Positions 2,088 to 51,594 of a stretch of 64,000 bases of DNA are shown piece after piece. Position 1 is the stretch's first letter. Every line of letters starts with the position of its first letter. A model generated the notes under the pieces. The model saw only the letters and a list, made by a program, of their open reading frames with translations. It had not been told where the DNA came from and did not search any database. The stretch spans positions 31,432,134 through 31,496,133 of the forward strand of contig NC_089314.1 in assembly GCF_036669915.1 (NCBI RefSeq), in the 5' to 3' direction. This DNA comes from Pocillopora verrucosa (taxonomy: Eukaryota; Cnidaria; Anthozoa; Scleractinia; Pocilloporidae). The position numbers were made by a program, and so were the translations under genes.

Positions 2088-2896
2088 ATGAACTCAAAAA
2101 TTATTTCGGTATTTCTTTATCTATCGGTGGTTCTGAGCATAGTGGTGCAAAATAATGCGTTTGTTCCCCAGGACGACACTGGTTTCCGAAGACGGGCTGC
2201 TGATATTTCTGGCTGCAAAAAGGTGAGAATATTTTTTATTGCATATACTTTTTGTTATTTTTCAAGTATACTTGTAATTGCCAAACACGGCCGAATCTCT
2301 AATGGTTCGTTTGCTAGTTTTTTAAGGTTAAATGCAATTCATTTGACAAAACAAGTACACAGAAAATTGAAAGTTCCAACTAACAGATCGTAATTGGTAC
2401 AAACTGTTTAGACTTTTAGAACAGTTCTGATTAACTTAAGGCTTCCAGATATACTGAAGTGCTCACAGCCTCTTCCGTGAAGACATCTAGAAAGCCAAAG
2501 CCAAGCCATCATCTCCGCTATAAAATGTTCCAGCATTAACATTTGACTAAAACTTAAATGAAGGGAATCCTCAATTGTACACGGATTTTAATTTTCCCTA
2601 TAAATATTCTCTTTCAGTCATTACATGGAAAAATTGGCCTTATTTCAAGATATTTAATTTACATTTAGGAAGTATAAATTGCTCAAAAATATTTTCAAGG
2701 TTTTCTAGCTAACAATTTGCTTAAAGGCTCAATTATTTGACCATTGACTAATCAATTTGTTCATTTATTTGTGAAATTTGTTGAAAAGCAACAAGCTGTC
2801 ATCAAATCTTTCTGTGAGCAAGTGCTTCCCTGCCCAGGTGAACGTAAACTCAAGGAAGAACTCGACTTCAAGAAGACTGCGGACTATCATCGGTAA
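2088..2896 (+). CDS. Secreted peptide precursor 1 (two exons)
   Basis: Exons are 2088-2222 and 2789-2896; the 566-bp intron is gt..ag, phase 0. The product is 80 aa. Residues 1-24 are a signal peptide ending ...QNNA, and the mature chain starts FVPQDDTGFRRR. The Phe at the cleavage point is the family hallmark, but here the usual T-A/P-G-A-G is only loosely kept. A basic RRR run could be a processing site. Exon 1 has one mature cysteine (SGCKK) and exon 2 has two in the order FCEQVLPC, which aligns with YCDKVRPC of the genes at 6.15 and 8.65 kb. An AATAAA lies at 2983, 87 bp after the stop. The splice pair was chosen because it joins two open frames in phase and places the paired cysteines as in the paralogues. 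Three cysteines is odd and leaves one unpaired or able to dimerise. Receptor, target and tissue are unknown. Confidence 0.78.
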
Positions 2897-2982
2897 CTGC
2901 TGACACCGATACCAGATTGAGAATCAAGGAATGGTCTTTAAAATACTGCGTAATAATATCAAAATAGTTATAGTAAGAAAAA

Positions 2983-2988
2983 AATAAA
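2983..2988 (+). terminator. Polyadenylation signal AATAAA of peptide gene 1
   Basis: A canonical AATAAA 87 bp downstream of the TAA at 2894-2896, the expected position for the end of a short transcript. Confidence 0.5.
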
Positions 2989-4125
2989 CTTGTAGTCGAT
3001 GTTAGCTTCAGATAGAATTAAAAAGACTCTAAATTAAGTTATGTTCAGAGTTTTTATAATTATGGCCATAGAGTTGGCCTCACCCACCAGGGAGGAGAGG
3101 TGGCTCATACTCACAAACTTAAGTTATGTCGTTAGGTTTAAGGAGGGGGGAAAGAGGCGAAGAGAGAAAAGGGCGATAGCGATATTTTACATGGCAAAAA
3201 ATGCCCTATCGTTAACTGATTTCCCTCTTACGCGCACGATCTCGGTTGCAATCAGACCCTGAACGCCATCAAAAGCCAAAGGTGAATTACCTCTGACCTT
3301 TTGTTATAAGATGTAATTGGAGGGTGCAATAAGAGGGATCACTTAGAGGTAACTTTAATTGAGAGGGATCAGAAGTCAATTAAATTGCATATGACACCAA
3401 ATGTTTCTTCCTGGTTTTCGTTTCTTTGATATGTGTAAAAAAAAAACTATTCTGAGGTTACAACAAATTTCTGCAGATTACGTTTAGATAGTAAAAAAGC
3501 AATTATTTTTATTTTATTCACGATCAGCAAAGGCGCCACTTGTAAAATGACTGCATGGTTCGAAATGGAAACCTAATTCAAGTTACTCGCTATATTCTGA
3601 GTCGCTTGGCATTGTGAGTGATAAATTTCAACGCGCAATCGCGGCCAAAATGTGTGAAATGACTCAAATTTTTACAGGAAATTTGCGCGTCGGGCAGTAA
3701 GGAGAATTGCAATTGAGCTAGATAGCAGGAGTGAATGGCTTATGTTTTACAAGCCAGGTGTACCTTTACTGTATGACCTCATCCGGATTTCTGTAGCATG
3801 AGGCGGCTAGGAATATTACCACTTTCCCTTGAGGGAATGCTAGTTTATAACACTCTTGGTGTGTCACGAAATGTTCCCGTCGTCTCCTATATTCCACTGG
3901 TATGCTCTTTACGGCTCGTGTCCACAACCTAGAAAAGACAAGTGACTCGAGGGATTCTATGGTATACTACTCAAAAGCTTTGCAAGACTATAATAAATAT
4001 GTATCATCGAATTAGATTTTTGTTGAAATACAACCGAAGACGTGTGCTTACCACTGGTTGCTAAAGCAATGACTATTGATCACAATGTAACGGAAGTGAG
4101 GGTCTTCAGTAGGTTTCTCAGGATG
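2989..4125. other. Intergenic, no gene seen
   Basis: No supported gene. The open frame at 3041-3262 has a biased basic composition with no motif and no family-like exon structure. Confidence 0.4.
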
Positions 4126-5500
4126 CTGGATTAGGCTCATTTGAAGGCCAGGATCCGGGAATTTATGGCAAGAAGGGAGCGGGAGGCGTGATTGCTATTA
4201 TGAACGGGACGCGGGAATCAGCAATTTTGAAGAGCGGGACTCGGGAAATAATCACTTAAACGAACCGAGAACCGGGATGTCTCCGTCATGAAAAGCACCA
4301 GGCGTACAGGTTCTTTCATTCAAGAGGCAGTCGGGCTGCTCAGCGACACTCTTCAGTTATTGCGTGGGAATGAAAATATGTCATGGGCGAAGTTGCCAAT
4401 TTATCAAAAATCCTCAATGGCCCACAGGGTAACGTGGCATCTAAGACTGCTGCGTCAATTGATATGCTTAACGGCTTTGAAAAACCTCAGAATTATAAAA
4501 GTCTCAGAATTATACCGATATGATGCTCTTAACCTGTTGAGTTACATGACACAAGATGCGAAGAATATTCTCTCTGTTGTGCATCACAAAGATAAACTTT
4601 TCATGGTGTTAGACTACCCAAGTAACTTTGGAAATGTAGCTAAAAGAGGCTTAATGAGGACAACCCATTGGGCGGCGTAATATTTTACAAATCCAAATTC
4701 TTGGTATCTTGTGCCCGAACGTGCCAGGATCCAGTCGACCATACCGGTATATCAACCGTTACCACCTGTGCCGATGGCACCACAGAGCATACGGAAGATG
4801 AGGGACTGGGCGTAAACATTTGTTGCAGCAGTGCGTCAGCTCTCTGTCAGACAGGAAACAACGATGGCAAGAGCTGGAACTTCCCGTCTTACCTCTATCA
4901 GAGAGAAATTCAGCCGGATTCGAACCGGTCAGCCTCGAATGCTCGGGCTCGAGGAGCAGCAAGAAAACGGTGTAAAATAAGACGAAGAGGGAGATGGAAT
5001 ATTGGAGTAAGATTCCCCGAGTGATGATGATGACATTCCATCTTTGGAACAAGAGGCTGATTTATCTCCGTTGTAATGGAACTATGGGATTGCCGTGACC
5101 TTTTGTGTTTTGTGCAGTTGTTAAAAATTGTTATTCGTTTCTTTGATACGGACCTGCCTGTACCAATACGTTTGTCCGTGATCGAAGGTTAATGAAGGGA
5201 GGTCGTTATTGTGACTAGCGTACGTTATTCGTGCAAGACTTTGAAAACTTCAAAAATGAACGTTAACGATATCGTCATTTTGGTAACCTGACGCCTTACG
5301 GTGACCATAGACTTCAACGGATCAATGCTGGTTAAGAAAACCATCACCCACCGGAAGGGCCCTTCTAAGGAAATGGGCTTAGACAAAATTGTACGATCGA
5401 GATCGGGATTGGCCGGTATAGACCGTCGGGATTACGGTTTTGATAAAAAATTTTTGTCGGCATCGCGGGATTGAAGAACCCTATTGGAGACCCTCAGAAG
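4126..5500 (+). mobile_element. Degenerate mobile element, copy A (shortened)
   Basis: It matches the longer copy at 30343-33130 at both ends. The left end carries 'ttgaaggcc' followed by several CGGGA-type motifs, and the right end carries 'cgcgggattgaagaacc' and 'attggagaccctca'. The part matching 30.5-31.6 kb of copy B is absent or unrecognisable, so this copy is probably internally deleted. The remaining reading frame (about 4500-5030) corresponds to the C-terminal part of the copy B protein, including YFTNP.SW, PLPPVPMAPQS and KMRDWA. It is broken by a stop at 4678-4680 and another just after KMRDWA. No transposase or polymerase domain is recognised, so the class is unknown. Confidence 0.75.
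4486..5030 (+). pseudogene. Broken ORF of element copy A
   Basis: The frame reads ELYRYDALNLLSYMTQDAKN, which is parallel to ELYGYDSLNLLSFMTLDVEN of copy B. It continues past two in-frame stops to PLPPVPMAPQS and RQETTMARAG. Because the stops differ from those in copy B, the ancestral protein was evidently intact and each copy decayed on its own. Function unknown. Confidence 0.65.
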
Positions 5501-6151
5501 TGTGGGTGCGTGGGTGTATGTTTGTATGTGTGACTGACCATACAGCATAGACACAAATTTCAATTCTTTTCTTTTTTCCAGATGAGACAGAGCTGGCCAA
5601 AATGAAACTTAATAGGATGTATATATGAATAAAGGAACGCAACTTGATTGCTAGTATAAATATTCTGTGCAATGTTATATTCAGCTGTTTGTAAGTTTCA
5701 TTTGTCATTTCGATAAAATACGTTTTTGACTCTTGTGAAAGAGCTCTTTGGTTTGTAAGCGTACGCAATCCGCTCAAATAATCCAACAACTAACGTAACT
5801 TAACTTAGAGAAGGCAAAACAGTTGGCTATTTAAAAGTAGAGTCGATGGTGGAACGCAAAATCTGGTCAACAAAATAATAGTTAAAAATGCGCTATCCAT
5901 ATATAAGCTTTCGACAATTGATTTGATAAATTTATTCAAGAAATAGAATCGGTCCCTTATTAGATACTCGTGACTAAAGTTTTAAAAAGGATGCTTGGTC
6001 CTCACAATTTACTACCTCACGTTTATAATTACAGACATAAATATTCACATCATCTTTTTTTATCATATACATAAGTTAGAGAAAATATCCAGTCGTCTAA
6101 ATAAATTTCGACCTTCCTCCAACTATAGTGATGGTCATCTTAGCCTCCAGG
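5501..6151. other. Start of the upstream segmental-duplication unit
   Basis: No gene supported. From about 5700 on, the sequence has a diverged counterpart from about 7960: 'gtgaaagagc.cttt', 'gtggaacgcaa' and 'agaaatagaa' occur in the same order in both. Confidence 0.5.
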
Positions 6152-7092
6152 TCAGAGTTGTTTCCGGTCCCTCTCAAGTGGAGCTTCTTCGCGAAGAAGA
6201 CTTCGTTTTCCGTTTGCCATGTTACACGGACGGACTTTGTCACAGTATGCCTTTATAAAATCCTCCTGGTTAAAACAATAATTGATGTAAGTATATATAC
6301 CACATAGATATTTAATGCTTTTAGAGGGCACTGATTGGCTAGCTAGCTCGGAGGTTCGGATCCAAGCCGGCGAGATATTCGTCAGTTTCGTTTTTGTCCA
6401 TATGTGCGAATTTTGCCAGAAATAAAGTAAATTTTAGTCCGTTGTTTATTCAGGGGAATCTGACAGAAAACTAAACCTCTTCACTTTGGCGAACAATTTC
6501 CTAACTAAAAAATATGAGGAGAAAAAATTCGATGAATCTCGACAACGGTCAGGATGTTGATCGACATTATTTAATCAGAGATTCTAAAGTGCTTATAATT
6601 TTCCAAGCCATGGGAATGCTTATATTCTTTTTTTATCGAATGGGCAGGAACTATTTCATTCTGTAAAAAACCTGAATGAACTCTTTGTCCACAAGCGTTT
6701 TCTACGACCCATGAGCCATGATAAAATGATAATTTTCAATAAAAATATACATCGAGCTAAATTGAAACTCGCGGCTTCCAAACGTCTCCCAAGTTACCCA
6801 AAAGGATAAAAATGGTGCGCGTTCAACTTAGCAATTCCTCTTTGCTTGCATAAAATGCAATAAATGCTTCATATGTTTGCTCGCAAAGACGAAACAAACG
6901 AAATAGAATGAGTACTGCGCTGTTGAAGATAAACGTTTAACGTCTTACCTGTTGATCACTGAATTTTCGCGCCACTTTTCGTCTTGGGCACACGTGTGCA
7001 GGACAATTCATGTTGGGTGTGAATGTTCTTCCCCAGCTTACAAAAGACAATAAAACTAGCGCTAGAAACATCAAGGAAAATGTGCTATTCAT
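6152..7092 (-). CDS. Secreted peptide precursor 2 (two exons)
   Basis: Minus strand; exon 1 is 7092-6949 and exon 2 is 6265-6152. The donor is CAG|gtaaga, the acceptor aaccag|GAG, the intron 683 bp in phase 0. The product is 85 aa. A hydrophobic signal peptide (residues 1 to about 22) precedes FTPNMNC. The mature chain has four cysteines: NCPAHVC in exon 1 and YCDKVRPC in exon 2, which could form two disulphides. A GKR site follows in ANGKRS, and the tail is charged. It is the tandem duplicate of the gene at 8651-9516. The start is fixed by the conserved MNST signal peptide and a TATA-like box about 90 bp upstream. A secreted signalling peptide or an antimicrobial or venom-type peptide are both possible; I recognise no named family. 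Confidence 0.85.
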
Positions 7093-7176
7093 ATTTCCAA
7101 ATCAAAAGGAGATTCCAATCGAGCAGTAACTGAGAACAGTTGGTTTGTGTTACATTCTCTTTGACGAGAACACGAT

Positions 7177-7185
7177 CATTTATAT
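7177..7185 (-). promoter_or_regulatory. TATA-like box of peptide gene 2
   Basis: Read on the minus strand the sequence is 'atataaatg', about 90 bp upstream of the ATG. The segment around it is kept in the duplicate at 9609-9616. Confidence 0.55.
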
Positions 7186-8650: not shown

Positions 8651-9516
8651 TCAGAAACGTTCCTGGTCCCTCTCCAGTACAGCTTCCTGCCGTGGAAGAG
8701 TTCGTTTTCCGTTTGCCCCAGGACATGGACGAACTTTGTCACAATATGCCTTTATAAAATCCTGCTGGTTAAAACATTATCGAAATGAGTCTAAACCATA
8801 TGGAGAATAGTACTTTTAGAGCGTGCTGATTGGTCAGCCAGTTCGGAGGCTCCAAGCGGCTGATGAATTACTTACTACTTATTTAGGTACGCTCGTTATT
8901 CAGCGTGCCTGATTTTTGACACAACAGTCATTTACCTCCCCTTCGGTGAATAATTTCTCAACTCAGCAAGGAAAAAAAGTTCGACAAACCACGGGTTCGG
9001 TAAAGATCTTGATCGATACACTGTTATCAGCCGTGAAAGAGATTTTAGAGAGCTGTTTGACAAGCTATGGGTACTGGGTTCTAGTTGGCATAAATACCTA
9101 TCAAATGGACAAGAACTACACATTTCACTCTGTAAAAAAATTAATGTACTCTCTGTCAGCATGGACGGGTGTTTTCCACCGCGTATGAGTGATGAAGGAA
9201 TGATAAAATTGAGTTCATGATCTTCATTCAGCCAAATTGAAACTGACTGTAACTAAATTGGATAAGAAAAATTTCCATTGATCAAAACAGAAAACAATGA
9301 ACTTAGCACATCCTCTTGGGTTACATAAAATCATATTTTTGGACTGCTGAGGATGCATTACTAATGAATTACCTGTTGATCGCTGTATTTTCGTACCACC
9401 TGACGTTTCTTGCACTTAGCTATATGACATCCCGCACCGGGTGTGAATGTGCTTCCCAGGCATACAAAAGATAATAAAACTAGAGCTAAAAGCATCCAAA
9501 GAAATGTGCTATTCAT
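8651..9516 (-). CDS. Secreted peptide precursor 3 (two exons)
   Basis: Minus strand; exon 1 is 9516-9373 and exon 2 is 8764-8651. The 608-bp intron is in phase 0 (CAG|gtaatt, aaccag|CAG). The product is 85 aa, the same length as its tandem copy at 6.15 kb. The signal peptide is followed by FTPGAGCHIAKCKKRQ: the family N-terminal motif, a C-x4-C pair and a KKR site. Exon 2 has YCDKVRPCPGANGKR, giving the second cysteine pair and a GKR site. The differences between the two copies leave cysteines, basic sites and splice sites intact, so both are probably functional. TATTATAAA-like sequence (TTTATT on the plus strand) lies about 130 bp past the stop and could serve polyadenylation. A secreted peptide of unknown target. 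Confidence 0.85.
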
Positions 9517-9608
9517 ATTTCCAAATCAAAAAGAGATTTAAATCGAGCCCTAACTGAGAACAATCGGTTTGCTGGAGTGAGTTGTGTTTACTTGTAAAAG
9601 AACACGGT

Positions 9609-15450: not shown

Positions 15451-15817
15451 ATGAACACCAAATTTTCGTGGATTCTTGTGGCTCTTCTTGTAAGTTCGTT
15501 TGTATGTTGGAGTAGCACATTTTCGCCGGGCCAGCATAACCCAAAGATGCGTTATGGCAAACGACATTTTGTCCCACAATCCAACCGTGCAAATGTAAGT
15601 TGATTAATAGCAATGCATGTCGAATCATTTCTTCAAGGACAAAATAATTTTTTTTCCCTCTGATTTACATGGAAGGTCCGCTCTCTTTAGCTTTTTTTTC
15701 CTTGCTTGTTTTCAGTTTCCATATTTGTTTGCATTACAGGAATACCTCCCTCGAGCATGGCTGAAAAAGTCCGTTGAAGATACTGCAAAAAAGCAGTTCA
15801 AGGCACAGCTTGAATGA
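15451..15817 (+). CDS. Secreted peptide precursor 5, predicted RY-amide peptide
   Basis: Exons are 15451-15594 and 15740-15817. The intron is only 145 bp, phase 0, with donor AAT|gtaagt and a pyrimidine-rich acceptor ending gcattacag. The product is 73 aa. The signal peptide (about residues 1-22) is very like those of genes 2 and 3 (MNTKFSW.LVALL.SSFV). The mature chain begins TFSPGQHNPKMRYGKRHF. The GKR triplet is a classic cleavage and amidation site and would give a peptide ending in Met-Arg-Tyr-amide. Exon 2 encodes EYLPRAWLKKSVEDTAKKQF and a short end. It has no cysteines, so the cysteine pair of the family has been lost. Its signal peptide, intron phase and start position place it in the family. 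Of all members it looks most like an amidated neuropeptide precursor. Confidence 0.8.
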
Positions 15818-23862: not shown

Positions 23863-26800
23863 ATGAATTCAGGAGTTCCCATTCTTCTTGTGGTCTTCGT
23901 TTTAGTGGCTGTTTTTTGTCACAAGTGTGACGCTTTTACGGCAGGAGCAGGAATTTTCAACAAAGGCAGGGACAAGGGAACAATAAGTGAGGTACATAAA
24001 TGTACAGTTTAGAAAAGCTGATGTACATGACAATAATTAATCCTTTTGTCGCTTTTAGTTGGAAGTCTTCTTTGAGCATTGGATCCTTCTTAGATTTAAA
24101 CGTTTTTCACCTATAAGGTTGAGGAATTCGACTGTTGAGTCAGTATCGTTTTAAGCAGAATAATGATATTAAAATGTTTGTCACAGAGCTATGCCAAAAG
24201 GAATTGCTCGTTTTGCTAATGGCCGCGCCCATTCTTATGTTGGAAGTTAGCAGGAATAATATGAATTTAAATATTCAAAGATGTTTTTAATCTGTCCTTT
24301 AGCCCTGGAGTATGGTTTGAATGGAAAAATAACAAGTCCAGATTATGATTCACTTTAAACACCGTTACATTTTTTCAATAATTAGAAATACATTGAACCC
24401 TGACCGTTAAACATGCGACGATTGCAAGTAATGATTAGAAATAAGTTTTACGAAGCATCTCCGTCGAGCCCAAACTGACTGAGACAGTTGATACAACCTG
24501 CGATTGAACTGAAAACGAAACCTTATATTTTTTGACATCATATAAGAAAGAGATTATTCAGTCATCAAAACTATTATTTGAAATTAAAGGGAAGATTCCC
24601 ACTAAGTTTACTCACAAATTGACTTCAAGTTTAACGCTCCATAAACAAGGCAATTGAGACTCGATCTCGAAAGCCCTCCTTGAATAGAAAGAATGGGTGT
24701 TCAGATCTGTGATACTTTTGTAGCCCCCTTCAGAACCTAAGGAGCATTATTCGGTTGGATGGAGTTTGGTTAAGCTAAAGCAAACATTACATTTCTGAAC
24801 CTCTTGAAAACTTTTCAAAAACCCTTTCAGTACAGGAAGTTATTACATTTAGTACTTTATCACCATCGAACTCTTCTTTTTATCGTTTACATCACCTTTA
24901 TAAGGTTGAATAGTGCATTTCTCCAAGCCTACAATATTAAATTTGATCTTGGAGATCTCAAAAAAAAAAACGAAACCAAAAACATTGACAATTCTCGTCA
25001 ACAATTCTCTGAGTTAGCACAAAAATGATAAATTGGTATCATTCAACCAATTTTTTTTTACTTTTTTTAAAGGAAGAACAACCTAATCACTTGCGTTGTT
25101 TCTCTTTAAAATGCAAACATCATATTTACAAGTACAGTGTATTTATATTTCGGTGTCTCTAAACTTTTTCAAGCAGTAATCAATTTAGTGATTTTAGGCA
25201 AAACAGTAGACGTGATTGGGCTTTTGCTGAAATATAAAATCTATGAAAGAATAGTTGATAGAAATCCACACAGTATGGAACAATTCAAACTGTCTGTTTT
25301 TTCGCATTTTGTTTATCTAAACATAAGGAAATGTTGCTCATTTTACAATAACATAAATATTTAAACATTGAAGATGATGAAACATGTGTTTTCCTAATTC
25401 CAAGTAATTAGAAGTTAAATCTGGGTGCTATTGGTGGAGCGGAGACCAGAATCCGGACGTTAAAAATACTTTTCTTCCATCATTTCCTTGATGTGTATTT
25501 CGCCGACGCATTCCTTTCTTAAAGAGACTGTCAGCAAAGCCTGAGGCTTCTTCTTATTGCAATTGAATTCGTGCAAAGAAGCAATAATTCTCAGATTTGA
25601 TGGATAAGTTATCTGACAAATCACAACTTCAATATGACGGATATTCCTAAGATTATTCCCTTGCACGACAATTTCCATATGAAGCAGGTGAATCTGAAAA
25701 AACTCATTGTCACAGCCAAGTAGTGGGAATAAGAAAATAATTTTTCCTTCTTCTTGAGTCAGATTATTGTCACAAAGAACTATATTGCACGCATCACTTT
25801 TCTCCGGACATACTTTGAAATGATTAAAAAATAAAGTAGTCAATTTTATCTCGTTTGTGGCTTAAGGTTTTTCGGCAATCCAATCCTTAAAAACTATTTT
25901 GCAACATTTTTTGATAGACATTACATAGACCTAAAATAACTGCTAATAAGGTTGAAAAACGCGACTCCTCAAAGTCACAGCTTAAGGTCACTGCACGGAA
26001 AAGATCAGGCATTAATTCAGGTGTATACTTGTTATTCTTCTGTTTTTGAGTTCTTTACTTTTCATCATGACACTGATATCGCATCAAATCAAACACTGAA
26101 CAAACAATTTGTGAGACTGACAGTAACACATATATTTCAGAATTAGTTCTAAGAAAGTTAGATTTTTACTTTCTCTACTGATCTGTTTTATTCATCCTTG
26201 GGTAACTGACTTGAAGCGCGTTTGTCAAGAACGATAACAAATGTTGCAAAAACAAATTTGAATATAGAAAAAGTTTAGTGGCTTTAACGATAATTTTTTC
26301 AAATGCAAGTGGTGAGGGAGGAAGGTCAACCAAGTACGTAATTGGTCATAAACTGGGATATTTCTCTCTCACCAGGAGAACATGATTTATGTTCCCTCAA
26401 GAGGATTTAGAGACATGAATCATGAACATGATATGTACTTGAAACCGTATTTATTTCCTCCATAACAGCTTTCCTTCTGTGACATTACTCTACAACAGAT
26501 ATCTACATTTTTGGTTCGGCAAAAAAAAAACAGTCATTATCGGCAAAAGTATGGATTTAAGTTAAAAATATGCATCAGTATTCAGGCAGGAACTGGGGTA
26601 ATTTTGATTGCTTTAATGCATTCTTTCGGCAACTTGAGTCAGGCTAGTTATTCAACATTTGAGAGCAAAAAATTTCAGTCCTCTCATTACGAGCAGAGAT
26701 CAAGTGACTCAGTATTACATGAGTGCCATATGACAATAAGAATTTCCCATTGGCCATTGTTTTGATCTATGGACAGCTATCTCTTCAATCCAAAAAGAAT

Positions 26801-27381
26801 TGTAACGAAAAATTGTTTCAGGAAAAAAAAACCAACTCATAAAATTAGTCTAATCGATCCACAAATCAATTTCTTTACTATGAAACGTTCTGCACTTGGT
26901 TGTATTCGGGTGTAATGGTTCCCATATTCCCAAGAGGCAAGGAAATTGGATATTTTTTATGTGGGAATCGTTGGGACTAATTGTGAGGTCAGTCCATTGG
27001 ACAAAACCCCCTGGCACTTTTTCAGACCTCCCTAACAGTTTGCACGCGATCCGTGGTACATCTTGGGTGGAGAGGGAAACCTTTCCATTTTTTATGTGAA
27101 CTGCCGGCCGCGTTTCCCACCCTCTCAGAAATAAATATCAGTTTAATGTAAGCTTGTATAAGTGATAGGGAAAAGTAACAGGGTCATTGGATTGTTCATG
27201 TAGTGGTTTTTTGTTATAATTTCAGTCCACCTGGCATCTAAAGCAGCTAAAGTACATCTGTGAAGCTGCCAAGGTGAGCTGTTCTGAGGTAAACGTGAGA
27301 AAGGCTACAGAGACCAGGAGTGAGACGAAGGGAGGTGTACCAGAACAAGACCATGGCGGACAGGGGATTGGAGACCAGTGA
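23863..27381 (+). CDS. Secreted peptide precursor 7 (two exons, long intron)
   Basis: Exons are 23863-23991 and 27226-27381. The phase-0 intron is 3,234 bp, much longer than in the relatives (GAG|gtacat; ttataatttcag|TCC). The product is 94 aa. The signal peptide ends at ..KCDA and the mature chain begins FTAGAGIFNKGRDKG, the clean family motif with a GR-type basic site. Exon 2 encodes TWHLKQLKYICEAAKVSCSE, a C-x6-C pair close to that of gene 10 (RVCATAQSAC), then a hydrophilic Glu/Gly/Gln-rich tail. AATAAA signals lie at 27492 and 27527. No other exon 1 lies between the two exons, which supports the long intron; a missed intermediate exon is possible. Confidence 0.75.
25460..25843 (-). CDS. 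Uncertain 127-codon minus-strand ORF inside intron of gene 7
   Basis: A longish open frame for this AT-rich window, with mixed amino-acid composition (EKSDACNIVLCDNNLTQEEG, later RIIASLHEFNCNKKKP). No domain, signal peptide or membrane segment is recognised. It could be an exon of an unseen gene, a gene relic or chance. Confidence 0.2.
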   Translation of the reverse strand: MTTLFFNHFKVCPEKSDACNIVLCDNNLTQEEGKIIFLFPLLGCDNEFFQIHLLHMEIVVQGNNLRNIRHIEVVICQITYPSNLRIIASLHEFNCNKKKPQALLTVSLRKECVGEIHIKEMMEEKYF

Positions 27382-30331: not shown

Positions 30332-31063
30332 GCCTATTCAGAGGACTGGGCTTACTTGAAGGCCGGGATTCAGGAATTTAAAGAAAGAAGGGAGCGAGAT
30401 GCGGGATTGTTATTATGAACAGGACACGGGAATCGGCAATTTTGAGGGGCGGGACTCGGGAAATAGTCACCTTAACGAACCGAGAATTGGGAAGTCCGTT
30501 GACGCGAATTTATTAAGTCCAAAAAAGCCTAGCCTCCCACGCAGCCGTTTTCAGAGGATCGCGTTTCACTTCTAACCACACAAAGCGAAAGTGAGACTCA
30601 ATCCCCAAAAACGCCTGCGTTGGAGGCTAAAAAGAAAGCCGCACAAACGTTGATATTCTTATCTAAGCACTTGCCAGGTACACAGCCTTTGCCCTTTGCT
30701 GTTGTTTTCTTTGCGACTCCTTGGTGATATCTGGACATTCTTAGCTTTGCCCTGTCCTGTAATAGTGACCTTTGATTTCTTGGTGACCGACCAATTTATT
30801 AATCGGTGCGAAAAAAATAGAGATGTCAGCCACTATCGAGAGCGATGAATCGGACTTCGACATAACGGACGTAGTAAATTGAGTAACAGTCTTTTACGAG
30901 AAGGGGAAGAGCGGAAGAAAAATGTCAGGCTCAGCTTTCACGAAAGGTGGTCTCCTTAAAGGCTCTCAAGGAAATAGTTAGGTAAGTTACGTTTTTTGTA
31001 GTTACCATGTTAGAAAACCCATAGAAGAAACCCAAGAGGGTTATGTAAGATATCCTAGAAGAA

Positions 31064-32268
31064 TTGGAAAAGGGCACAAGAGACCCGTTTTTGTCCTTGG
31101 TTATACCATTAACGGACAGTGTTCATGTCGGCAAAAGTCTCAAAGCTGGTTTTGCTAACTGGTACTTGAAGCTCGAAAATAAGAAGGGCAATCTGGCAAT
31201 TTTGAAAACTTTAAGAAACAAGGCAAGTCCTGAAGTTAGGAAGACAATGCAAAAGTTCCTACACCGAAATGATCATGTACAAAACAAAGACCGCTGGGAT
31301 TCAGCGGCAGTAATCAGGTTGGTTGATGAAAAGCTTATCGAGTACCTCCAGCAGCAGGACTTCGTAAGCCACACAATAATACCAGAAATGGATCACGTTA
31401 CTGAGCACAGCAGGGTGGGAATGTATCTTCATCCCATCAATATCGCTGTGGGTCCTTTCAGTAGCCTGCTGTTTCTCACCCTGAATCAAGAAACGGGTGG
31501 ATCAAATTTGTATATAGCTCAGTTGCACAACCCAGTTCAAAAGGTTGAAGTTCTTAAAGAGTCTGTTGCTGCCAAAGAAGTCCACTTTAAGAACAGTGTC
31601 GTATTTCTAGCTGGCAATGAGTTAAAACGCGATTATGAAGCGAGAGGATTCCAATGCTTAAATACGGCGTTGAAAAACTCCAGCAAGTTTCAGAATTATA
31701 CGGATATGACTCTCTTAACCTGTTAAGTTTTATGACACTAGATGTGGAGAATATTCACTCGGTTGTGCATCACAAAGATCCACTTTGCACAGTGTTGAAC
31801 TACGCGAGAAACTTTGGAAACGCAGCCAAGGAAGGCGTAAAGAAGGCAACCCATCGGGCCGCGTACTATTTTACAAATCCGAAGTCTTGGTAAGCTGTAC
31901 CCGAACGTGCTATGATCCTGTCAGCCATACCAGTAATTCAACCATTACCACCTGTACCGATGGCACCACAGAGTTTACAGAAGATGAGGGACTGGGCGCA
32001 AACATTTGGTGCTGCAGTGCGTCAGCGTTTTGTCAGACAGGAGACAACAATGGCAAGAGCTGGAACTCTCCCATCCTACCTCTACCAGAGAGAAATTCAG
32101 CAGGGTGAACCGGTCAGCCTCGAACGCTCTGACCTCGAGGAGCAGCAGGAAAAAGACGAGGAGGAAGATATGATGTTTAAGTACGATTCCCCAAGCAGTG
32201 ATGAAGAATCGGCCAACGACGAGACCGCGTGTGATGTTGGCGAGATTCCATCTTTACAACGAAGGTGA
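31064..32268 (+). pseudogene. Broken ORF of element copy B
   Basis: The first frame (31064-31726, 220 codons) is coding-like, e.g. HVTEHSRVGMYLHPINIAVG. The continuation is in another frame from about 31654 (ELYGYDSLNLLSFMTLDVEN), so there is a frameshift near 31660. A stop at 31891-31893 breaks that frame, which then runs to 32268 through PLPPVPMAPQSLQKMRDWA and an acidic end with clustered Glu/Asp/Ser. A possible upstream start near 30822 gives an acidic run and then meets a stop. Copy A has a Tyr codon where copy B has the 31891 stop. I do not recognise the protein family; a DNA-element accessory protein is one possibility. Confidence 0.65.
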
Positions 32269-32627
32269 ATTTTCTCCTCGGAAGAGTTCCTCGCTTCGGA
32301 AGAAGTATTCGCTTCAACAGCAGAATTTTGTTCAGTTAATTTTTCTTTATTTTCCTCGTCATGAAACTATGGATTGCCGTCACCTTTTGTTTTTTTTTTA
32401 TACTTTTGTTGACATTGCTGTTCGTTTCTTTGATACTGACCTGTCTCTACTAATACGCTTTTCCATGATCGAAGTTAGACAGAAGGAAGTCGTGACTGCG
32501 ACTAGCGTACGTTATTCGTGCAAAACTTCGAAAACTTCTAAAATGAACAATAACATAGTTTTGGTGAAAAGAAACCAACGTCTGACGGTGAGCAAAGACT
32601 TCAACTGATCAATCCTGGTTGAGAAAA

Positions 32628-32995
32628 GGCCCCTTTAACGACTGCAAATATATGAAAATCATATATATGTAAACTGCGGTTGAAGAAATGATTATGAAAG
32701 CGATCCTCGCAGTTATGAACACTACTTAACTAGTAGTAAATATGAGACCTGAAAAAAATTCAGGCCCGTACGGGATTTGAACCCATCACCTCTGTGATAC
32801 CGGTGGAGTGCTCTATAAACTGAGCTAACAAGCCAACTGAGAGCTGGTCATTATGTTTGTTTTAAATAAACCCCCAAGTGATGAATAAATGACTGCAAAT
32901 GAAAATCATATAAATTTGAACTGCGGTTGAAGAAACGAATATGAAGGCAATCCTCGCAGTTAAGAATGCTACTTCACTAATAGGCCCTTTAAAAT
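32628..32995 (-). mobile_element. tRNA-like SINE-type composite repeat, nested in copy B
   Basis: Minus strand: a tRNA-like core at about 32762-32838 has an A box (TAGCTCAGTTTATAGAGC), an intact B box (GGGTTCAAATCCC) and a seven-pair acceptor-like stem with two G-U pairs. Both sides carry arms with 'aactgcggttgaagaaa' and 'atcctcgcagtta'. It is bounded by 'ggcccctttaa' at 32627 and 'ggccctttaaa' at 32985, which look like a target-site duplication. Copy A of the host element lacks it, so it inserted later. Confidence 0.75.
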
Positions 32996-33130
32996 TGAGG
33001 TGTTGGGCTAAGAAAAAAATTTTATGAACGGGATCGGGATTCGCCGGTATAAACCATCGGGATGACGGGATTAAGAGAAAATTTTATTGAGGATCGCGGG
33101 ATTGAAGAACCTTATTGGAGACCCTCAAAG

Positions 33131-33384
33131 TACGTGATGAAATGTAAGTTGTTTTACATGTACATCATGGGAAAAGAGGCGGAAAAACACATTTTGTCTT
33201 AAAAATGATACCGAATAAAAAAAAATGCGCACCTTAGATATCCCGATAAATCTCGACCGATCTCTGCAAAGGCCACAACCACTCATATGAACCCAAAATA
33301 AGCCCAAAATTTCTGGTTAACGTAATTCTTTGTGCACGGCCCCCAAATTCTATGACTTCATTCACAAGAAACTGAACAATATCC
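33131..33384. other. Short non-coding spacer
   Basis: Nothing beyond the third copy of the 'acgtgatgaaatg' repeat at its left edge. Confidence 0.4.
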
Positions 33385-37504: not shown

Positions 37505-37990
37505 CAATCTAAATTAACATTAAATGAATGTAAATATATGAAAATCATATACATGAACTGCGGTTGAAGAAACGAATATGGAAGCGATCCTCGCAGTTAT
37601 GGACACTACTTAAGTGGCAGTGAAAATAGCGCCTGAAAAAATTCAGGTCTGTAAGGGATTTGTACCCATGACTATTATTTTCACTGCTTGTTGAGTAGTG
37701 TTCATAAATGTGAGGATCGCTTCGGATCCGTATCCGTTTCTTCAACCTCAGTTTACATATATGATTTCATTATATTTACAGTCATTTATTCACCACTTCG
37801 AGGGTTTATTTGGAACCAATATAATGACCAATTCCCAGTTAGCTTGTCAGCTCAGTTGGTAGAGCGCTGCACCAGTATCGCAGAGGTCATGGGTCAAATC
37901 CCGAACGGGCCTGAATCTTTTTCAGGCTTTACTTTCACTACTACTTAAGTAGTATTCATAACTGCGAGTATCGCTTCCATATTCGTAAAT
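37505..37990 (+). mobile_element. tRNA-like SINE-type composite repeat, second locus
   Basis: A plus-strand tRNA-like core at 37842-37913 has 'gctcagttggtagagc' and a B box lacking one T (GGGTCAAATCCC). The right arm continues to 'aactgcgagtatcgcttcc'. Left of it (37540-37680) sits a second piece of the same family in the opposite orientation, with a badly decayed core. The two pieces make an inverted composite. Confidence 0.75.
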
Positions 37991-39776: not shown

Positions 39777-41175
39777 CTATGTAAAGTTCCTCTTTTTCGA
39801 CGTGCAGTAAGCTTCTACTGCCCTGCAAAACTCGATTTCTTCTGAAGATAGGGCAAGATTCTGAAATGAAATTTAAATCCGTTTAGAGCAAGAAACTTAA
39901 AATTTATCGAAAAATGCTAAATTTATCCTCAGGACTGTTAATAATCTTCACTGCAATTTACGTCTGAGTTTATCTCGATGAATAATAATCTGACATCCAA
40001 CATCTAAAGGACAGCTTTAAGAATAGTAATCAGACCAGATTTATAAATAATCCATGAAAGGGGAACTGGAAAAATGGCTTCTAAGTAAATCAAGAATCTT
40101 TGGTTTGTATAATTGGACGAAGACACTTCACAGATGGAATTACTCTTTGTTCAGGGAGTTTTTATAAAGTGAGCATATTCCTTAAAAAAACTGTCCAGTA
40201 AATTTTGCGAACTGCGTCAACTAAGTAAGCTTAGAATTAAAAAAAAAATAAAAATGTACAGTTATCCCATCAACCCACTCATTAGTAAAGCTCGGGCTCC
40301 ATTGATTTTCTGAAACCACGCAGGGCCTACGTTACACTTTGCCTAAGTAACCAGCCTTATGATTGTATAACGTTCTATCACGTTGCATAAAAATGATTTT
40401 ATTTATATTTTGCGTCCATTGTCTTTGAAGGGAACTAGTAATTTATGTATTGACGAAACTTCTCACACTCCCTAACTGAATGGAAATGTTCACGAAAAAA
40501 CAACTCGATGGATAAACATCTGCCAAGCGATCGAAAAGAGTCTAAAGAGAGATTGAAACAGTTGCCCGCTATACTAATTTGCTTTCTTGTGCTTTGGCAC
40601 CAACTTAGTTGTTTCTTTCAAGAATCTAATGAACAAAATTTGAATCTAACCAAAGCAAAAATTTCAAAAAATCTTTTTATCAACCACTCTTGTATGAAAT
40701 CCGTAGAAAAAACATGAGTTTAGTTGGTAAAGCAGGTTGGCTGCGAAATCAGAAAATGATTCTGTGGTTGGAGTTTTAACGAAGGGCTCAGATGTTTTCA
40801 ACGAACGACTAAGAAATATTTTTCTTTTTGTTCTGCTCTTGTGTTAAATTTTTAACAATTTTCTTTCTTTCGTTCTTTAACTGATCGTGCTGTTAATATC
40901 AAGTGGTTACGAAAACCGCAAACCTCCGCTGTTCGTTGAACTGTGGTGACTGAGAAGGTCGCGTTTTAAGCGAGACACTCGTCTAAAGTATGAGGAATTT
41001 CAGCTTATCGTATAACATACATAAAAGGTGGCGTATCACCGACCTGCTGCCGTTTTCCTGCTTTTGGTCTTTTTCCCTTTGGGAGTCCACCTGCCCCAGC
41101 TGTAAATGAATCTCCTTCAGGAATACAAACGATAAATACTATCGCCATTGCAACTGTGAAGACTTTGATGTTCAT
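39777..41175 (-). CDS. Secreted peptide precursor 8 (two exons)
   Basis: Minus strand; exon 1 is 41175-41044 and exon 2 is 39860-39777, with a 1,183-bp phase-0 intron. The donor CAG|gtcggt is weaker than in the relatives; the acceptor is ttcatttcag|AAT. The product is 71 aa. The signal peptide ends ..EGDS, then FTAGAGGLPKGKRPKAGKRQ: the family motif and two GKR sites in a row, so two short amidated products are possible. Exon 2 has EIEFCRAVEAYCTSKKRNFT, with a C-x6-C pair and a KKR just before the end. The TATA-like box lies at 41276-41283, about 100 bp upstream. This is the shortest member. The weak donor is the main doubt. Confidence 0.74.
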
Positions 41176-46000: not shown

Positions 46001-47188
46001 GGATTGGTTTTTGTCGGAGTGGTATTTGTCGGTAAATGTAGCTATTTAATGCAATAAGTTTGATTAAATATAATGTCTTGTAGGTGTTGAGATATGAATT
46101 CTAGTCAAGATGAGTTTCTTTTTGTTTTTGGATCATTTAAGATTTGATAAAGAGAGTTTTGTATTTAAGGTTGAATCGCAGTCTTTCGCCTTATGATTGA
46201 ACATATCTAAATACTTCTGGAATGACATGAAAATTTGTTTCAATTTCGTTTTAATTTCGAAAAGCATTGTGTCAAGCTGATCGATGACACGGTTTTCGGG
46301 GGTATACAATTGTATGAAGTCTCATTTTGTCGCTTTTTATTGATTTATAATGTTTAATTCGATTTGCGGCTTCTATACAGTATTTCCTTTGATTTGCACC
46401 TCGCCTAAATCATGTTCATAAAAAGCCAGCTAAATTCAAGTTTATTGAAATTAACTTATTAAAAGGTTAGAGAAGCATTAATTTTAAATAGAGCAAATTG
46501 CATAAAGAAAGGAGAGGAAACTTGGAAGAACTCGTCAACAAACAGGAGACGCAAATTGAATAAAAACGTATTTCCTCTTTGACGGATGTCCAAGGAATAC
46601 GTGAGCATCAGCGCTTTAGTGGCAAAACTCTGCTTTTGACATTGTTCAACGAAACTATACTTCCAAGTATAAGTTTTGTCAAAAACCCTTTTAGCTGTAA
46701 ATCACAACTGAAGGTTTTTAGACTGCAAATCAGACTACGAATTTTTTTACATATTGCAACTTTTGAAGGGAGAACGTGTTTTGAATGAGTTATTTATGTC
46801 TGAAAGGACGGTAACAAATAAACACATTAGGGACTACTATCAAAGCTTACTTTGAAAATACCGCCTAATCGCCAGTAAGGTTCCAATCAATTATACCATC
46901 GCCAAGAGACTGTTTTCATAAACTTCACCCCTTTGCATTAAATGAAATAACGTACATTATTTCCTCGATGTGGGTTTATTAACCCGCAGGTTGTCCATTT
47001 TCTAATTGATTCAGCTTCCTTTCGCTGACAGAAGACAACATCACCATCATTACGGAAAATAAAAGAGAAAGCCACTCTATTCTTTTGAAGAAAGCCATCT
47101 CGTTAGCAGTGTTATTAACTTAACGCCTTGTTCGGTTGTCATTTGGCATCGTTTTGTTATTGACGCAACACAGGTGGTTTAGCAAACC

Positions 47189-47197
47189 ATTTAAAGG
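47189..47197 (+). promoter_or_regulatory. TATA-like box of peptide gene 9
   Basis: 'atttaaagg' lies 92 bp before the ATG. Gene 10 has 'tatttaaaag' 95 bp before its ATG. Both are followed by a 'ttggattaaga'-like block, so the two promoters are related. Confidence 0.5.
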
Positions 47198-47280
47198 TGC
47201 TGCACTATCATGCAGTACTCGCAAGAAAATTTGGTTAGATTCAAGCACGCCTCTTTGCCTTAGGCTAAATTCATCTAAAG

Positions 47281-48522
47281 ATGTGTCCAAGACTCACCGT
47301 CGTGTTTTTGCTCGTTCTTGTTGCCGTCTCCATGTTCCCACAGACGTACGCCTTCACTGCTGGAGCAGGGAATATTGGTAAACGAGGCGAGAATTATTTC
47401 CAGGTAAATTAAACCACTTAAGATATTTCTTTTCTGGCACCTACCACGTTTTCTTCTTCTTGAAAATAATTATTTTATCACACATAACACTTTATCATTT
47501 TTATCTGACTTACGGCAGGCTCACTCTATCAAACATTTAAGCGAAATAACTGATAACGTATGGTCACAATTTAACCCTGATCATTAATAGACAAATATCT
47601 CCGACAGTCAGGCAGCTAACTTTCACCGTTTAGATTGTCCAAGGCATTACAAATTAACAAAAATCCTAGGCCAATTTTTTTCAGTACTCAAGAGACCTAC
47701 ATGAGGCAAATGTTTATGATCGTCACTTATTTTCTCTGAGTCACATCTGTGATAGACAAATAATTTTCATTTCACATATTTGCCATTGTTTTATGTATTT
47801 TTAAAAAAAATTCTAATTTTCCGCTTAGTGCTTTTTCCACAAAATTAAATGTTTAATCCTTTTTAAGTTACATCAGTAAGCTAATATATGTTAACCAACA
47901 GACTGCCAATATTAGCCAATCACATCGCCATGTGCTCTTTTCAATTGAGACATAAAGCTAAAATTCCATAGTCATAAAGCGGGCGAAATGCTTCGAGCCA
48001 TCCATCTCTGACTTCGCTTTCAGAGATAAAAGAAAGAATTCTCAATTTTTTAGCTTTGTCTTTTATCAAAGAACGAAGAAATTAGAGCCACGACAAATTG
48101 ACGTTTCAAACATCTCCCCTGTATTGTTTCATTAAATAAATAAATTTGATTACTATTTCCTTCCATACGTGTCGGTCAGTTTGGCTGACTGAAAATTATA
48201 CAATTTGCCCCTAACGAGATAAACCATCTGGAAAACTCGCTGGTCGTTGAGACCACGGTAACATTCATTAACTTGCTCTGTTTCCAGTGAACGGATAAAT
48301 TACTGAAACTAGCTTTCACTGATGTCAAAATTTAATTGTCACAAAGAAGTGTTAAAAAAGATTGCTTGATATGGTAATGAAAGTCATACATACGTAAACT
48401 GCCGCCTTCTTCGTGTGCAGGAAATGCATCATGCTCTAAGCAATAACTCAGTATTGAACATCGGTGACGGAAAGCGGAAAGTCACAAGATATCTAACCAT
48501 TCAACCAAATTTTGGCTATTAA
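47281..48522 (+). CDS. Secreted peptide precursor 9, FTAGAGNI-GKR type
   Basis: Exons are 47281-47403 and 48421-48522, with a 1,017-bp phase-0 intron (CAG|gtaaat; cgtgtgcag|GAA). The product is 74 aa. The signal peptide ends ..FPQTYA, then FTAGAGNIGKRGENYFQ. Cleavage and amidation at GKR would release an eight-residue peptide. Exon 2 has NSVLNIGDGKRKVTRY, a second GKR site, and ends ..NFGY. It has no cysteines, unlike its near neighbour gene 10, whose exon 1 is very similar. An in-frame stop 15 bases before the ATG fixes the start. The exon 2 choice rests on splice sites, phase, 33 open codons and the GKR, and is less sure than exon 1. Confidence 0.72.
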
Positions 48523-50132
48523 AGCAATACTCAATTAGCTGATTGATAAGTTGTTGATGAATTTTACATGCCTCCGTCTTATTCTTCTGCTGACAGCCTA
48601 GTTTTGCTTACTCTCCAAGAGGAAACTGGGCACGAGCTTGCGTTACCAAGATTTCTTAACCAGAACTATATTAGGAAGTGTATTTGTATGGGAAGGGTTC
48701 CATCGAAAAATAGCAAGAAAACAAAATCGTAATTAACCCTGTCCGTTTTTTTACTTTCTTTAAGAAAATCTTGGCCGCTACCGTTATTTGCATTTTTGGA
48801 AATGGAAAAGAGGTCGATTTAAGGGCGAAATAATTTCAAAAATTGAAAGAGCGTCTCAGAGGTTGTAGCATCGTGTGAAATTCGGTGCTTCATGGGAGTA
48901 AAACTCATTGAGATATTCACCATTGCAAACGGCCAATTTCGTGGCTGGCAAAAGCGCTAGTGAGCCCTTACATTCTTTGTAAAATTTTTGATTTTTAATA
49001 TCGTGTGTTTGCGAGAATTTTACCACTATCGGGCTAAATCTTTGAGAGAAGGGTACGACCTATATTTCGATAACTCAGCACCAAAATGTTTTCAGTTTCC
49101 TGTAACCAATAATTAGTTCGTCAGTTTTTCGATTCGAACAACATCAGCCTCAGGCGTCAAAAGTCATTAAAGTCTCTGCATTTGTCTTGAACGAAGTTCT
49201 TGTAGACAAATCATGATATTTCAGCGATAAAAAATATTTGAAAGCTGAAAAATACGCCCGGAAAAACCTTCGGCATCGTCTTTAAAAGAAAAGTGTTAAT
49301 TCGCAAAAAAATTAGCTCATTTTTCTGGTGTAACAGATGTTTTTTAAGATTTGTTTATTCAAATAAAATGTTCGTTTTGTATCTAAATTGATCAAATTCA
49401 TATCTCAATTTGTGATAAATTGAAAACTGAAAAGTTTTGAATTAAATATTGTCACTAGTGATGTCTAAGCGATGCGTGGGGGACATTTATCACAACCTTG
49501 ATGGCAGAAAACGTAAGCAATATTATAATATGTTAACAGTAATTGACGAAAACACGTTGACTTAATTAATATTTAGACGTATTTAAAATTTAGAGTTACA
49601 TCTGAAGAATTTCTCCTCAAAGAAAATGTGGCAGAGATTTATTAAGGAAGTCATACGTACTTTTCACATATTGGAAATCTGTTTTGAAAAGTTTTCTAAG
49701 ACGTTAGCTGAAATACTTCCCCATAAAATTCACACACTAGAAAGAATGCTCCCTGTCTAAAAACAGATAATTCTATTTGGTGTATTTACAAACGTTTACA
49801 ATTAAATTACTGCTGATATTGTCACGATTCCTTATTCAATTAAACAAAATTATACAAACGGCTCTGGAAATAAGTGAATTAAGAGCGCATATCTACTTTA
49901 CGTGGGATAATTTACAGATGGGTTGCATATTTTGTTAGTTGAATTCACTTCCTTTTTCCTTTTCTTTCTGCTGCTTAAAGAAGAAAACAGGATCATTTTA
50001 TCGAGACTGGGGACAATAATAATCTCGTCAAATGTCGGTTATGCTTAATTACCGGTTTTAATGTGTTATCATTTAGCGTCACTTACTTTCGCCCGCGCGT
50101 TACTATCGGCCGGAAAAATACTAATCATCAAA
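48523..50132. other. Intergenic, no gene seen
   Basis: No supported gene. The end of the stretch holds the gene 10 promoter. Confidence 0.4.
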
Positions 50133-50142
50133 TATTTAAAAG
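50133..50142 (+). promoter_or_regulatory. TATA-like box of peptide gene 10
   Basis: 'tatttaaaag', 95 bp before the ATG at 50228; similar to the box in front of gene 9. Confidence 0.5.
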
Positions 50143-50227
50143 CGGTATGACTAAGAGAGAACCTCAAAGTAGAATTGGATTAAGATACGAAAACTCTGTT
50201 CTCACTGCACCAGCTTTTCAGTCGAAA

Positions 50228-51594
50228 ATGATCTCAAAAGTGCGCGTTTTTTTCTTGCTGGTTCTAATTGCCGTATCTATGTATCCTCGAACGCTCGCAT
50301 TCACAGCCGGAGCAGGCAATATCCGGGGTAAACGAGGTGCCAATAACATCCAGGTAAAATGTTCCTAGTATTTCCCTTCAGCATGCCAACCTTCTTTATC
50401 CACTAGGTCACTTAGCCTCATCAAGCTGAAGATGTATCGATGTGCAAACTTTTAATTGTTCGTGGTTTTGACACTATGCTCAGCAAAAGTGAGATTCGCA
50501 CTTTTCCTATTAAAAAGTCCGAAAAACTTTCTTTTTCAATCATTATTATATTTTTAGATTTATTTTGAATTTAATTACTGTGTGGAAAATATCTATTTTT
50601 TTTTCCGGCTACAATGAAATTGAATCATTTCGCTGATCTCTAGCGATTCCGATGCTCAATTGCAATTTTTGAGCACAGGTTATCAAAATATTACAATCCA
50701 TAGAATAGCCGGTTTTGAGTTGAATTTGATGCAGATATTCAGTATCGGAGCAGTCCACAGATGTACTTTAAAGTAATTTCCCATGAGAATAAACATCTCT
50801 TTGTCTAATTTTGAGCATGCGGTTAAAACATCTTCTCATTCCTTTAGCGGGAAATGTCACTTTCCCGACCCCTTAATCATAAATTGAGCATGTTATAGAC
50901 TTCATGATAGATGTCGTATTTTGAAATATTTCTCGATATATCTACATGAAGTTGACATTAAATTTAGATGCACTTATGTCTATCAGCACTGCAGGCGAAT
51001 TCGATAACATCTTAAACACATTTTATCGCAATTATGAGAAACAGTACTTTTACCATTTGTATTTGTCTTTCTTCTGTTTGAAGTTGAACGAACCGACGGA
51101 TAAATACTGACCGGGTACAACTGATTTAAGGTACTCTAGTCCTACAGCCAATGACATTACGTAAGAAACTAACCTATCAGTTTTCACGATATTAAACTTA
51201 CAATGCTCGACTGAGAAATTAACAGCACTTCACTTGACTTCAATCATTAGTTTTAATCAGGCTGTCGAAACGTCAGTCACTTTTATGTCGACAGTTCCTC
51301 CTGGACGAGCGGACCACTCAACCAACTACAACTCCTTGGTTAAAACGTTTATTGAACCATTCTAATTCAAAACAATTTACCATTATTATCAACTTTTCAG
51401 TGTAGATGATAACTTCTGCTCAGAAGCTTCAAAACATTTACTAAGTATTCGCTGCAGTTCAAGTTCAATTATTTCATTTTTCACAGGCTACCTATCACCT
51501 CCGCCGAGTTTGCGCGACAGCGCAGTCCGCCTGCCAATCCTTGAGAAAAAAAGATACAGCTTTTCACCAGATGGACCAGTCTAACGAACAGTAG
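50228..51594 (+). CDS. Secreted peptide precursor 10, FTAGAGNIR-GKR type
   Basis: Exons are 50228-50353 and 51487-51594, with a 1,133-bp phase-0 intron (CAG|gtaaaa; ttcatttttcacag|GCT). The product is 77 aa. The signal peptide ends ..YPRTLA, followed by FTAGAGNIRGKRGANNIQ, so an amidated nonapeptide is predicted. Exon 2 encodes TYHLRRVCATAQSACQSLRK, with a C-x6-C pair, and a polar Gln/Asp-rich end. An in-frame ATG exists at 50063, but the 50228 start gives a signal peptide matching gene 9 and sits correctly behind the TATA box. AATAAA at 51765. With gene 9 it forms the second recent pair of the family, but only this copy keeps the cysteines. Confidence 0.85.

Follow-up and report, generated by a model that had tools for sequence, protein, structure and literature searches.

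A cluster of two-exon secreted-peptide genes in the stony coral Pocillopora verrucosa, probably a hexacoral family of single-copy peptide prohormones

The stretch of Pocillopora verrucosa DNA analysed here, 64,000 nucleotides of contig NC_089314.1 (C3:31432134-31496133 in our numbering, hereafter the window), carries nine small genes with a common two-exon plan, which we number 1 to 9. A first-pass annotation, made from the letters alone, had described this recurring design, and we found that the cluster is real and larger than first noted: an upstream scan adds nine first exons, u1 to u8 and one named after its position, 31389059, so that 18 are now spread over about 100 kb. All nine first exons of the window were found at their claimed places, each with an ATG, a signal-peptide-like leader, a Phe and a phase-0 GT. 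They start at 2088, 15451, 19602, 23863, 47281 and 50228 on the plus strand and at 7092, 9516 and 41175 on the minus strand; the donor reads GTA or GTG in eight of the nine and GTC in gene 7. The TATA-like box expected before the ATG is likewise present in all nine, at -112 to -72. The exons of the window are listed below; eight-digit positions in the text are those of the contig, shorter ones those of the window.

2088..2222, plus: gene 1, exon 1; signal peptide, FVPQDDTGF, RRR, AADISGCKK; intron-free relative P0012
2789..2896, plus: gene 1, exon 2 with stop; QQAVIKSFCEQVLPC...; junction identical in P0012
6949..7092, minus: gene 2, exon 1; FTPNMNCPAHVCPRRK...; relatives P0002 and P0004
6152..6265, minus: gene 2, exon 2 with stop; EDFIKAYCDKVRPC...; junction identical in P0002 and Stylophora P0004
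9373..9516, minus: gene 3, exon 1; FTPGAGCHIAKCKKR...; tandem duplicate of gene 2
8651..8764, minus: gene 3, exon 2 with stop; QDFIKAYCDKVRPC...
15451..15594, plus: gene 4, exon 1; FSPGQHNPKMRY-GKR; gene models P0001 and P0007
15740..15817, plus: gene 4, exon 2 with stop, Cys-free; junction as in P. meandrina P0001 and Stylophora P0007
19602..19718, plus: gene 5, exon 1; FAAGLGNM-KKR; no convincing private tail exon
23863..23991, plus: gene 6, exon 1; FTAGAGIFN; no dibasic site
27226..27381, plus: gene 6, tail exon, possibly common to gene 5; ...YICEAAKVSC...; similar to the Desmophyllum P0047 tail
41044..41175, minus: gene 7, exon 1; FTAGAGGLPK-GKR
39777..39860, minus: gene 7, exon 2 with stop; ...EFCRAVEAYC...
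47281..47403, plus: gene 8, exon 1; FTAGAGNI-GKR
48421..48522, plus: gene 8, unlikely candidate for a private exon 2 with stop, Cys-free; open frame and acceptor only
50228..50353, plus: gene 9, exon 1; FTAGAGNIR-GKR
51487..51594, plus: gene 9, tail exon with stop, possibly common to gene 8; ATYHLRRVCATAQSAC...

The initial description had given every place one complete two-exon gene. This stands for genes 1, 2, 3, 4, 6, 7 and 9, whose own tail exons were located, while genes 5 and 8 possibly use a neighbour's tail. It had also placed two close cysteines in most second exons; the pair is present in six of the seven located tails, gene 4 has none, and the tails of genes 5 and 8 are not confirmed.

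The scan covered 324 kb around the window, 5 kb of which was unreadable. Beyond the first window gene the cluster extends for about another 50 kb upstream, with first exons on both strands, and from the end of gene 9 to 31566133 no clear further member was seen. One doubtful outlier downstream of the window (C3:31551598, minus), in which a leader is followed by FHMGNNQVGQPKGK, is left uncounted. The upstream members are:

31383793, minus: u1 first exon; FTAGIGANVPGRKR
31386725, minus: u2 first exon; IAAGGSTWKSKR
31389059, minus: first exon 31389059; LTAGGNNWSRR
31393107, minus: u3 first exon; FSYSRQAWKR
31398416, plus: u4 first exon; ISAGGSTWKR
31407853, plus: u5 first exon; FSPYMTKPKGDVSG
31416501 or 31416510, minus: u6 first exon; FTAGSGGYKGKR
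31422590, minus: u7 first exon; FNAGMGGMGGKR
31429329, plus: u8 first exon, an upstream copy of gene 1; FIPPGATNGNNFRRR
31385380, minus: C-x5/6-C tail exon after u2
31392107, minus: C-x5/6-C tail exon after u3
31401335, plus: C-x5/6-C tail exon after u4
31415066, minus: C-x5/6-C tail exon after u6
31421618, minus: C-x5/6-C tail exon after u7
31430059, plus: C-x5/6-C tail exon after u8

For u5 there is a weak Cys-pair tail candidate only. Known coral Cys-rich peptides such as the SCRiPs and damicornin have six to eight cysteines, and we rejected them as a match, as 12 tails here have a single C-x5/6-C pair, u5 a weak one and gene 4 none.

Short exons and single motifs do arise by chance, so that chance open frames, or dead copies, had to be considered. 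A filter for a hydrophobic stretch followed by F[TSAV][AP] at residues 20-27 matches nine times in the window, against a mean of 0.1 and a maximum of 1 in 60 windows simulated with an order-2 Markov model; with a GTA or GTG donor added, eight matches remain against none in the simulations. The filter was designed post hoc from the nine genes, and these numbers hence speak for non-randomness and are not an unbiased p-value. The same is true of the pattern used for the TATA-like box, which occurs at -112 to -72 in 14 of the 18 first exons overall and at 6.5% of 20,000 random positions. Of the 18 first exons, 16 have a Cys-pair exon in the 5 kb that follow (background chance 0.47 each, p 3e-4); this is a weak, generic test with some spurious matches. 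Besides the simulations, the spliced relatives described below contradict chance for genes 1, 2 and u3, and the change in FTAGAGNI and in the tail core of genes 2 and 3 is mostly synonymous. We therefore give this explanation practically no weight.

Two profile searches with an expectation value (E) up to 1 gave 30 and 21 proteins, and a third, with E up to 10, gave 6; family members were found in Pocillopora, Stylophora, Acropora, Desmophyllum and the sea anemone Exaiptasia. In three of them, P0002 (from a 909-base contig, beginning at the second Met), P0012 (916 bases) and P0032 (1160 bases), the leader runs into the tail without an intron, and the junctions match exactly those predicted for genes 2, 1 and u3, respectively. 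These three sequences are likely transcripts, because they bear the source label "lgn", which we take to denote assemblies of public reads. The two-exon plan is found as well in the gene models P0001, P0004, P0007 and P0033-P0035. P. meandrina P0001 and Stylophora P0007 (gene 4) and Stylophora P0004 (gene 2 type) have the predicted junction, and Stylophora P0033, a u6-type model, agrees with the predicted plan. In P. damicornis P0005, gene 4 is joined at an earlier acceptor, and in P0031 u6 is joined from an earlier donor, both in frame. Window genes have nearly identical counterparts among proteins named after P. meandrina and P. damicornis; P0001, P0003, P0034 and P0044 of P. meandrina each come from a 9,055,176-base contig, which suggests that the cluster is kept in this species.

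Among the more distant relatives, Acropora cervicornis P0040 reads FTAGAGGW... with the tail ICSAARAFC, Desmophyllum pertusum P0047 FTAGAGNI-KKR with ICEAAKKSC, and Exaiptasia diaphana P0037 FTAGAGNI-GRR with LCSALATYC. FTAGAGNI is thus identical across Pocillopora, Desmophyllum and Exaiptasia. P0048 (3205-base contig) follows P0037 through GRRGL, continues with V and then diverges, which fits a phase-0 donor at the junction site of P0037. By profile search the entries SpisGene9299, 9301, 18769 and 18771, pdam_00002510, LOC113674054, OS493_005055, P5673_031727 and AIPGENE19072 belong to the same family; they are single unnamed hypothetical proteins, whose names convey neither the cluster nor the common plan nor a peptide-hormone reading. 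No Pfam family was reached at its cut-off by any of eight scanned proteins, and no paper in the open-access collection searched contains FTAGAG, FTAGAGNI or any of six gene identifiers, a search that left supplements, subscription papers and preprints outside. The earlier views, that this is no known named family and that a single old family has multiplied by duplication in both orientations, are accordingly supported, the latter by the 18 first exons on both strands and by the relatives in coral genera and Exaiptasia.

Within the own genome, an assembly of 353 Mb in 52 contigs, exon 1 of gene 4 recovered genes 4, 3 and 2 at E up to 10, and exon 1 of gene 9 recovered genes 9 and 8. The exact DNA pattern for FTAGAG has eight genome matches, four of which are window genes; the other four (one on contig C5, two on C6, one on C7) have no signal peptide in front. 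A search of viral contigs for gene 4 relatives found none. Between the peptide genes lie two repeat copies (window 4128-5501 and 30343-33131, 77-84% identical in pieces), which may have contributed to the duplication, and short-repeat copies in direct and inverted orientation at 32634-32983, 37520-37672 and 37677-37986.

The gene models also bear on how tails are used. In P0034 (P. meandrina) and P0035 (Stylophora) a first exon with LTAGGNNW or IAAGGNNW is joined to the tail AKRALESMCR. The counterpart here is the first exon 31389059, which lies upstream of the u2 first exon; both are on the minus strand and upstream of the one tail at 31385380, so that this type of join, mapped here, leads from 31389059 to 31385380 and skips the first exon at 31386725. 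The layout is the same for genes 5 and 6 (tail 27226) and for genes 8 and 9 (tail 51487). Judging from gene models for one first exon and from layout for the rest, alternative first exons may use a neighbour's tail, and genes 5 and 8 may be spliced to the tails of genes 6 and 9.

All 18 first exons encode a hydrophobic leader, and at the cleavage site that we chose the (-3,-1) rule is satisfied before F, I or L in 16, gene 1 and u8 being the exceptions. Position 1 of the peptide is Phe in 15 members, Ile in two and Leu in one; position 3 holds Ala or Pro in 17 and is followed by Gly in 13; position 8 is hydrophobic in 11 and Trp in four (u2, u3, u4 and 31389059). Judging from these counts, the constant part is the N-terminal one; several members resemble octapeptides. 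A dibasic site follows the peptide in 16 of 18, and in 7 of 18 it is preceded by the Gly of an amidation signal. Genes 2 and 3 have two additional cysteines in exon 1, and in 10 of the 12 Cys-pair tails a second basic pair stands at most eight residues past the second Cys.

The precursors of adipokinetic hormone (AKH), red pigment-concentrating hormone (RPCH) and gonadotropin-releasing hormone (GnRH) likewise consist of one amidated peptide past the signal sequence and a Cys-bearing associated peptide, and AKH has a pyroglutamate N-terminus, F-[ST]-P-G at positions 4-7 and, in octapeptides, Trp at position 8. A relationship could be read from the strings FSPG, FTPG and FTPN in genes 2-4 and from the Trp8 of four members and Acropora P0040; the AKH-type string FTPGWG does occur in published papers. 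None of the 18 peptides, however, begins with Gln, the F-[ST]-P-G string stands at positions 1-4 here, no member combines it with Trp8, and the profile searches matched no protein named AKH or GnRH. We regard such kinship as very improbable.

Closer is the likeness to the sea-anemone Antho-RNamide, -RIamide and -KAamide precursors. The sections of PMC7523074 on these precursors describe a single N-terminal-Phe peptide past the signal sequence, a basic, often GKR, site and paralogous genes, and state that the Phe directly past the signal sequence becomes phenyllactyl. The shared plan, together with Phe at the start of 15 of the 18 peptides, would fit true membership of these phenyllactyl families. 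Compared by peptide cores alone, however, none of the 18 has LRN, YRI/YRV/YKI or FKA, and we consider membership unlikely. In contrast to the precursors treated in those sections, it is the N-terminus that is conserved here, the peptides are longer, the amidation signal is confined to 7 of 18, and the hosts are stony corals; the same sections report phenyllactyl precursors as not found in Scleractinia, Corallimorpharia and Zoantharia, with one in a ceriantharian. Since the cores differ, we claim likeness only. A DNA pattern for FLRN-GK(R) gave eleven genome matches, of which seven were inspected and have no signal peptide in the preceding 80-100 bases; the other four are letter-identical over the pattern to an inspected one. 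The Antho-RWamide precursors, as presented in part of PMC7523074, are also similar in having a single peptide directly past the signal sequence and are reported in Scleractinia. Their peptides, unlike all 18 here, begin mostly with Gln and end in RW-amide. A G-x-R-W-GK(R) pattern gave two genome matches, one without a signal peptide in front and one encoding no RW; neither this pattern nor the FLRN one yielded a usable comparison gene.

Several open frames lie among and beside the peptide genes. Upstream of the window, at C3:31403510 (minus), a frame of 316 residues combines a signal-like leader with 11 repeats of [VI]PPNV[FY]RNTG[FY]AG[NK]KAGKR; it resembles a multi-copy precursor of amidated neuropeptides and lies within the cluster. 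Its apparent relative at C3:31412444 (plus) is a secreted-looking frame of 115 residues with IPPSIFRTNSWEGKR, IPPSIFKKPGLGKR and IPQSISRMNSWKGKR. A frame for a class C G-protein-coupled receptor (GPCR; ANF_receptor, NCD3G, 7tm_3) adjoins the cluster at window 56954-59755 (plus), and on the downstream side, some 45 kb past the last peptide gene, at C3:31528422 (minus), there is a 347-residue rhodopsin-family GPCR frame whose first 90 residues match 7tm_1. The frame at window 61809-62285 (minus) has no Pfam match; we take it to resemble a piece of a sialate O-acetylesterase.

Sequence change was gauged by simple Nei-Gojobori counts over few codons. FTAGAGNI in genes 8 and 9 differs at four synonymous and no nonsynonymous sites. 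Between genes 2 and 3 the nonsynonymous and synonymous rates (dN and dS) are 0.03 and 0.55 in the first 14 tail codons, 0.16 and 0.37 in the signal peptide, and 0.74 and 0.87 in the mature part. Gene 1 and u8 share 70 of 72 bases in the signal peptide, 34 of 36 in the remaining exon 1 and 107 of 108 in the tail exon (97-99% for signal-peptide and tail DNA), as well as 529 of 566 aligned intron bases, and between these parts the mature segment is unalignable, with 27 gap columns and 18 aligned bases. Among 12 sequences (10 database representatives, gene 1 and u8, with alleles, paralogs and species not separated), 21 signal-peptide residues are identical yet seven mature forms occur; P0012, a thirteenth sequence of this type, is more diverged throughout. 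The mature peptide of gene 1 and u8 thus seems to change very fast.

Such a fast mature peptide, tandem expansion and small secreted Cys-pair products are common in defence and venom peptides. The genes could therefore encode duplicated antimicrobial or venom-like effectors of epithelium, mucus or stinging cells, in which the basic site only trims a pro-part. We find this rather improbable, if less so than the other alternatives: except in genes 2 and 3, the predicted mature peptides are short and Cys-free, seven of 18 have amidation signals, FTAGAGNI is unchanged in Pocillopora, Desmophyllum and Exaiptasia, and peptide-hormone-like precursors lie within the same cluster.

Most probably, in our view, the genes form a hexacoral family of single-copy peptide prohormones. 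Precursors with a single peptide directly past the signal sequence are already known among anthozoan neuropeptides, as part of PMC7523074 sets out, and we count the two multi-copy GKR precursors within the cluster in favour of this reading. Signal peptidase would expose the N-terminal Phe, rarely Ile or Leu, and a prohormone convertase would cut at the dibasic site just past the peptide; where Gly precedes that site, amidation would yield, for example, FTAGAGNI-amide, FTAGAGGLPK-amide or FSPGQHNPKMRY-amide. Exon 2 would supply the C-x5/6-C tail, which, given the second basic pair near the second Cys in 10 of 12, might be excised, either as a joining peptide or as a second one. Once released, the N-terminal peptide would probably be a neuronal or neurosecretory signal, its receptor most likely a GPCR. 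New peptides would arise by duplication of first exons, each copy keeping its own promoter and its phase-0 splicing to its own tail or a neighbour's. The dibasic and amidation signals, the likeness to phenyllactyl precursors, the possible sharing of tails and the fast-changing gene 1 peptide all go beyond the first-pass annotation.

A number of observations weigh against the prohormone family. Gene 6 and u5 have no dibasic site, and 11 of the 18 members have no Gly before the basic site, as is also the case for Desmophyllum FTAGAGNI-KKR. The gene 4 tail has no Cys. A search for the u1 tail exon gave no good candidate, and for genes 5 and 8 no convincing Cys-pair exon of their own was found, only a 16-residue candidate at 22194 (gene 5) and the Cys-free one at 48421 (gene 8); at the same time, in none of the sequences found is the shared tail joined to the first exon of u2, gene 5 or gene 8. 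In P0003 genes 8 and 9 are fused, and P0036 and P0044 take u6 and u5, respectively, into different second exons; these disagreeing models may be prediction errors. A structure model from an 11-row alignment with the Desmophyllum protein first is of low confidence (mean predicted local distance difference test score 64.5, predicted template-modelling score 0.27); in it the leader and the tail are helical and the peptide is without helix. Finally, FTAG is absent from the main text of the Nematostella neuropeptide paper (PMC11087051).

One may speculate further that stony corals make a large family of phenyllactyl-blocked hormones whose message is the N-terminal F-x-[AP]-G, that first exons are swapped onto shared tails, and that gene 1 and u8 encode a hypervariable recognition peptide differing between copies, perhaps between Pocillopora lineages. 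This bolder scenario we hold to be doubtful.

As parts of PMC7523074 and PMC11087051 describe, screens for cnidarian neuropeptides rely on repeated copies or cleavage sites within one precursor, and single-copy precursors were picked up with regular expressions or by BLAST starting from those already known; for the Nematostella receptor work (PMC11087051, in part) the secretome was screened for repeated cleavage sites, complemented by BLAST and mass spectrometry. Because such screens seek repeated cleavage sites, a single-copy family is easily missed. The portions of PMC9545775 and PMC12225738 consulted contribute nothing direct. The phenyllactyl modification is so far reported from sea anemones, with a prediction for a single tube anemone. 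The cluster indicates that clustered one-peptide genes can escape repeat-based neuropeptide screens, and it supplies 18 peptides as candidate ligands of orphan receptors in corals and anemones. Whether stony corals lack phenyllactyl peptides, as reported, becomes testable by mass spectrometry. The family also provides a contrast case, in which one peptide has stayed constant between distant hexacorals and its neighbour has been rewritten between recent copies.

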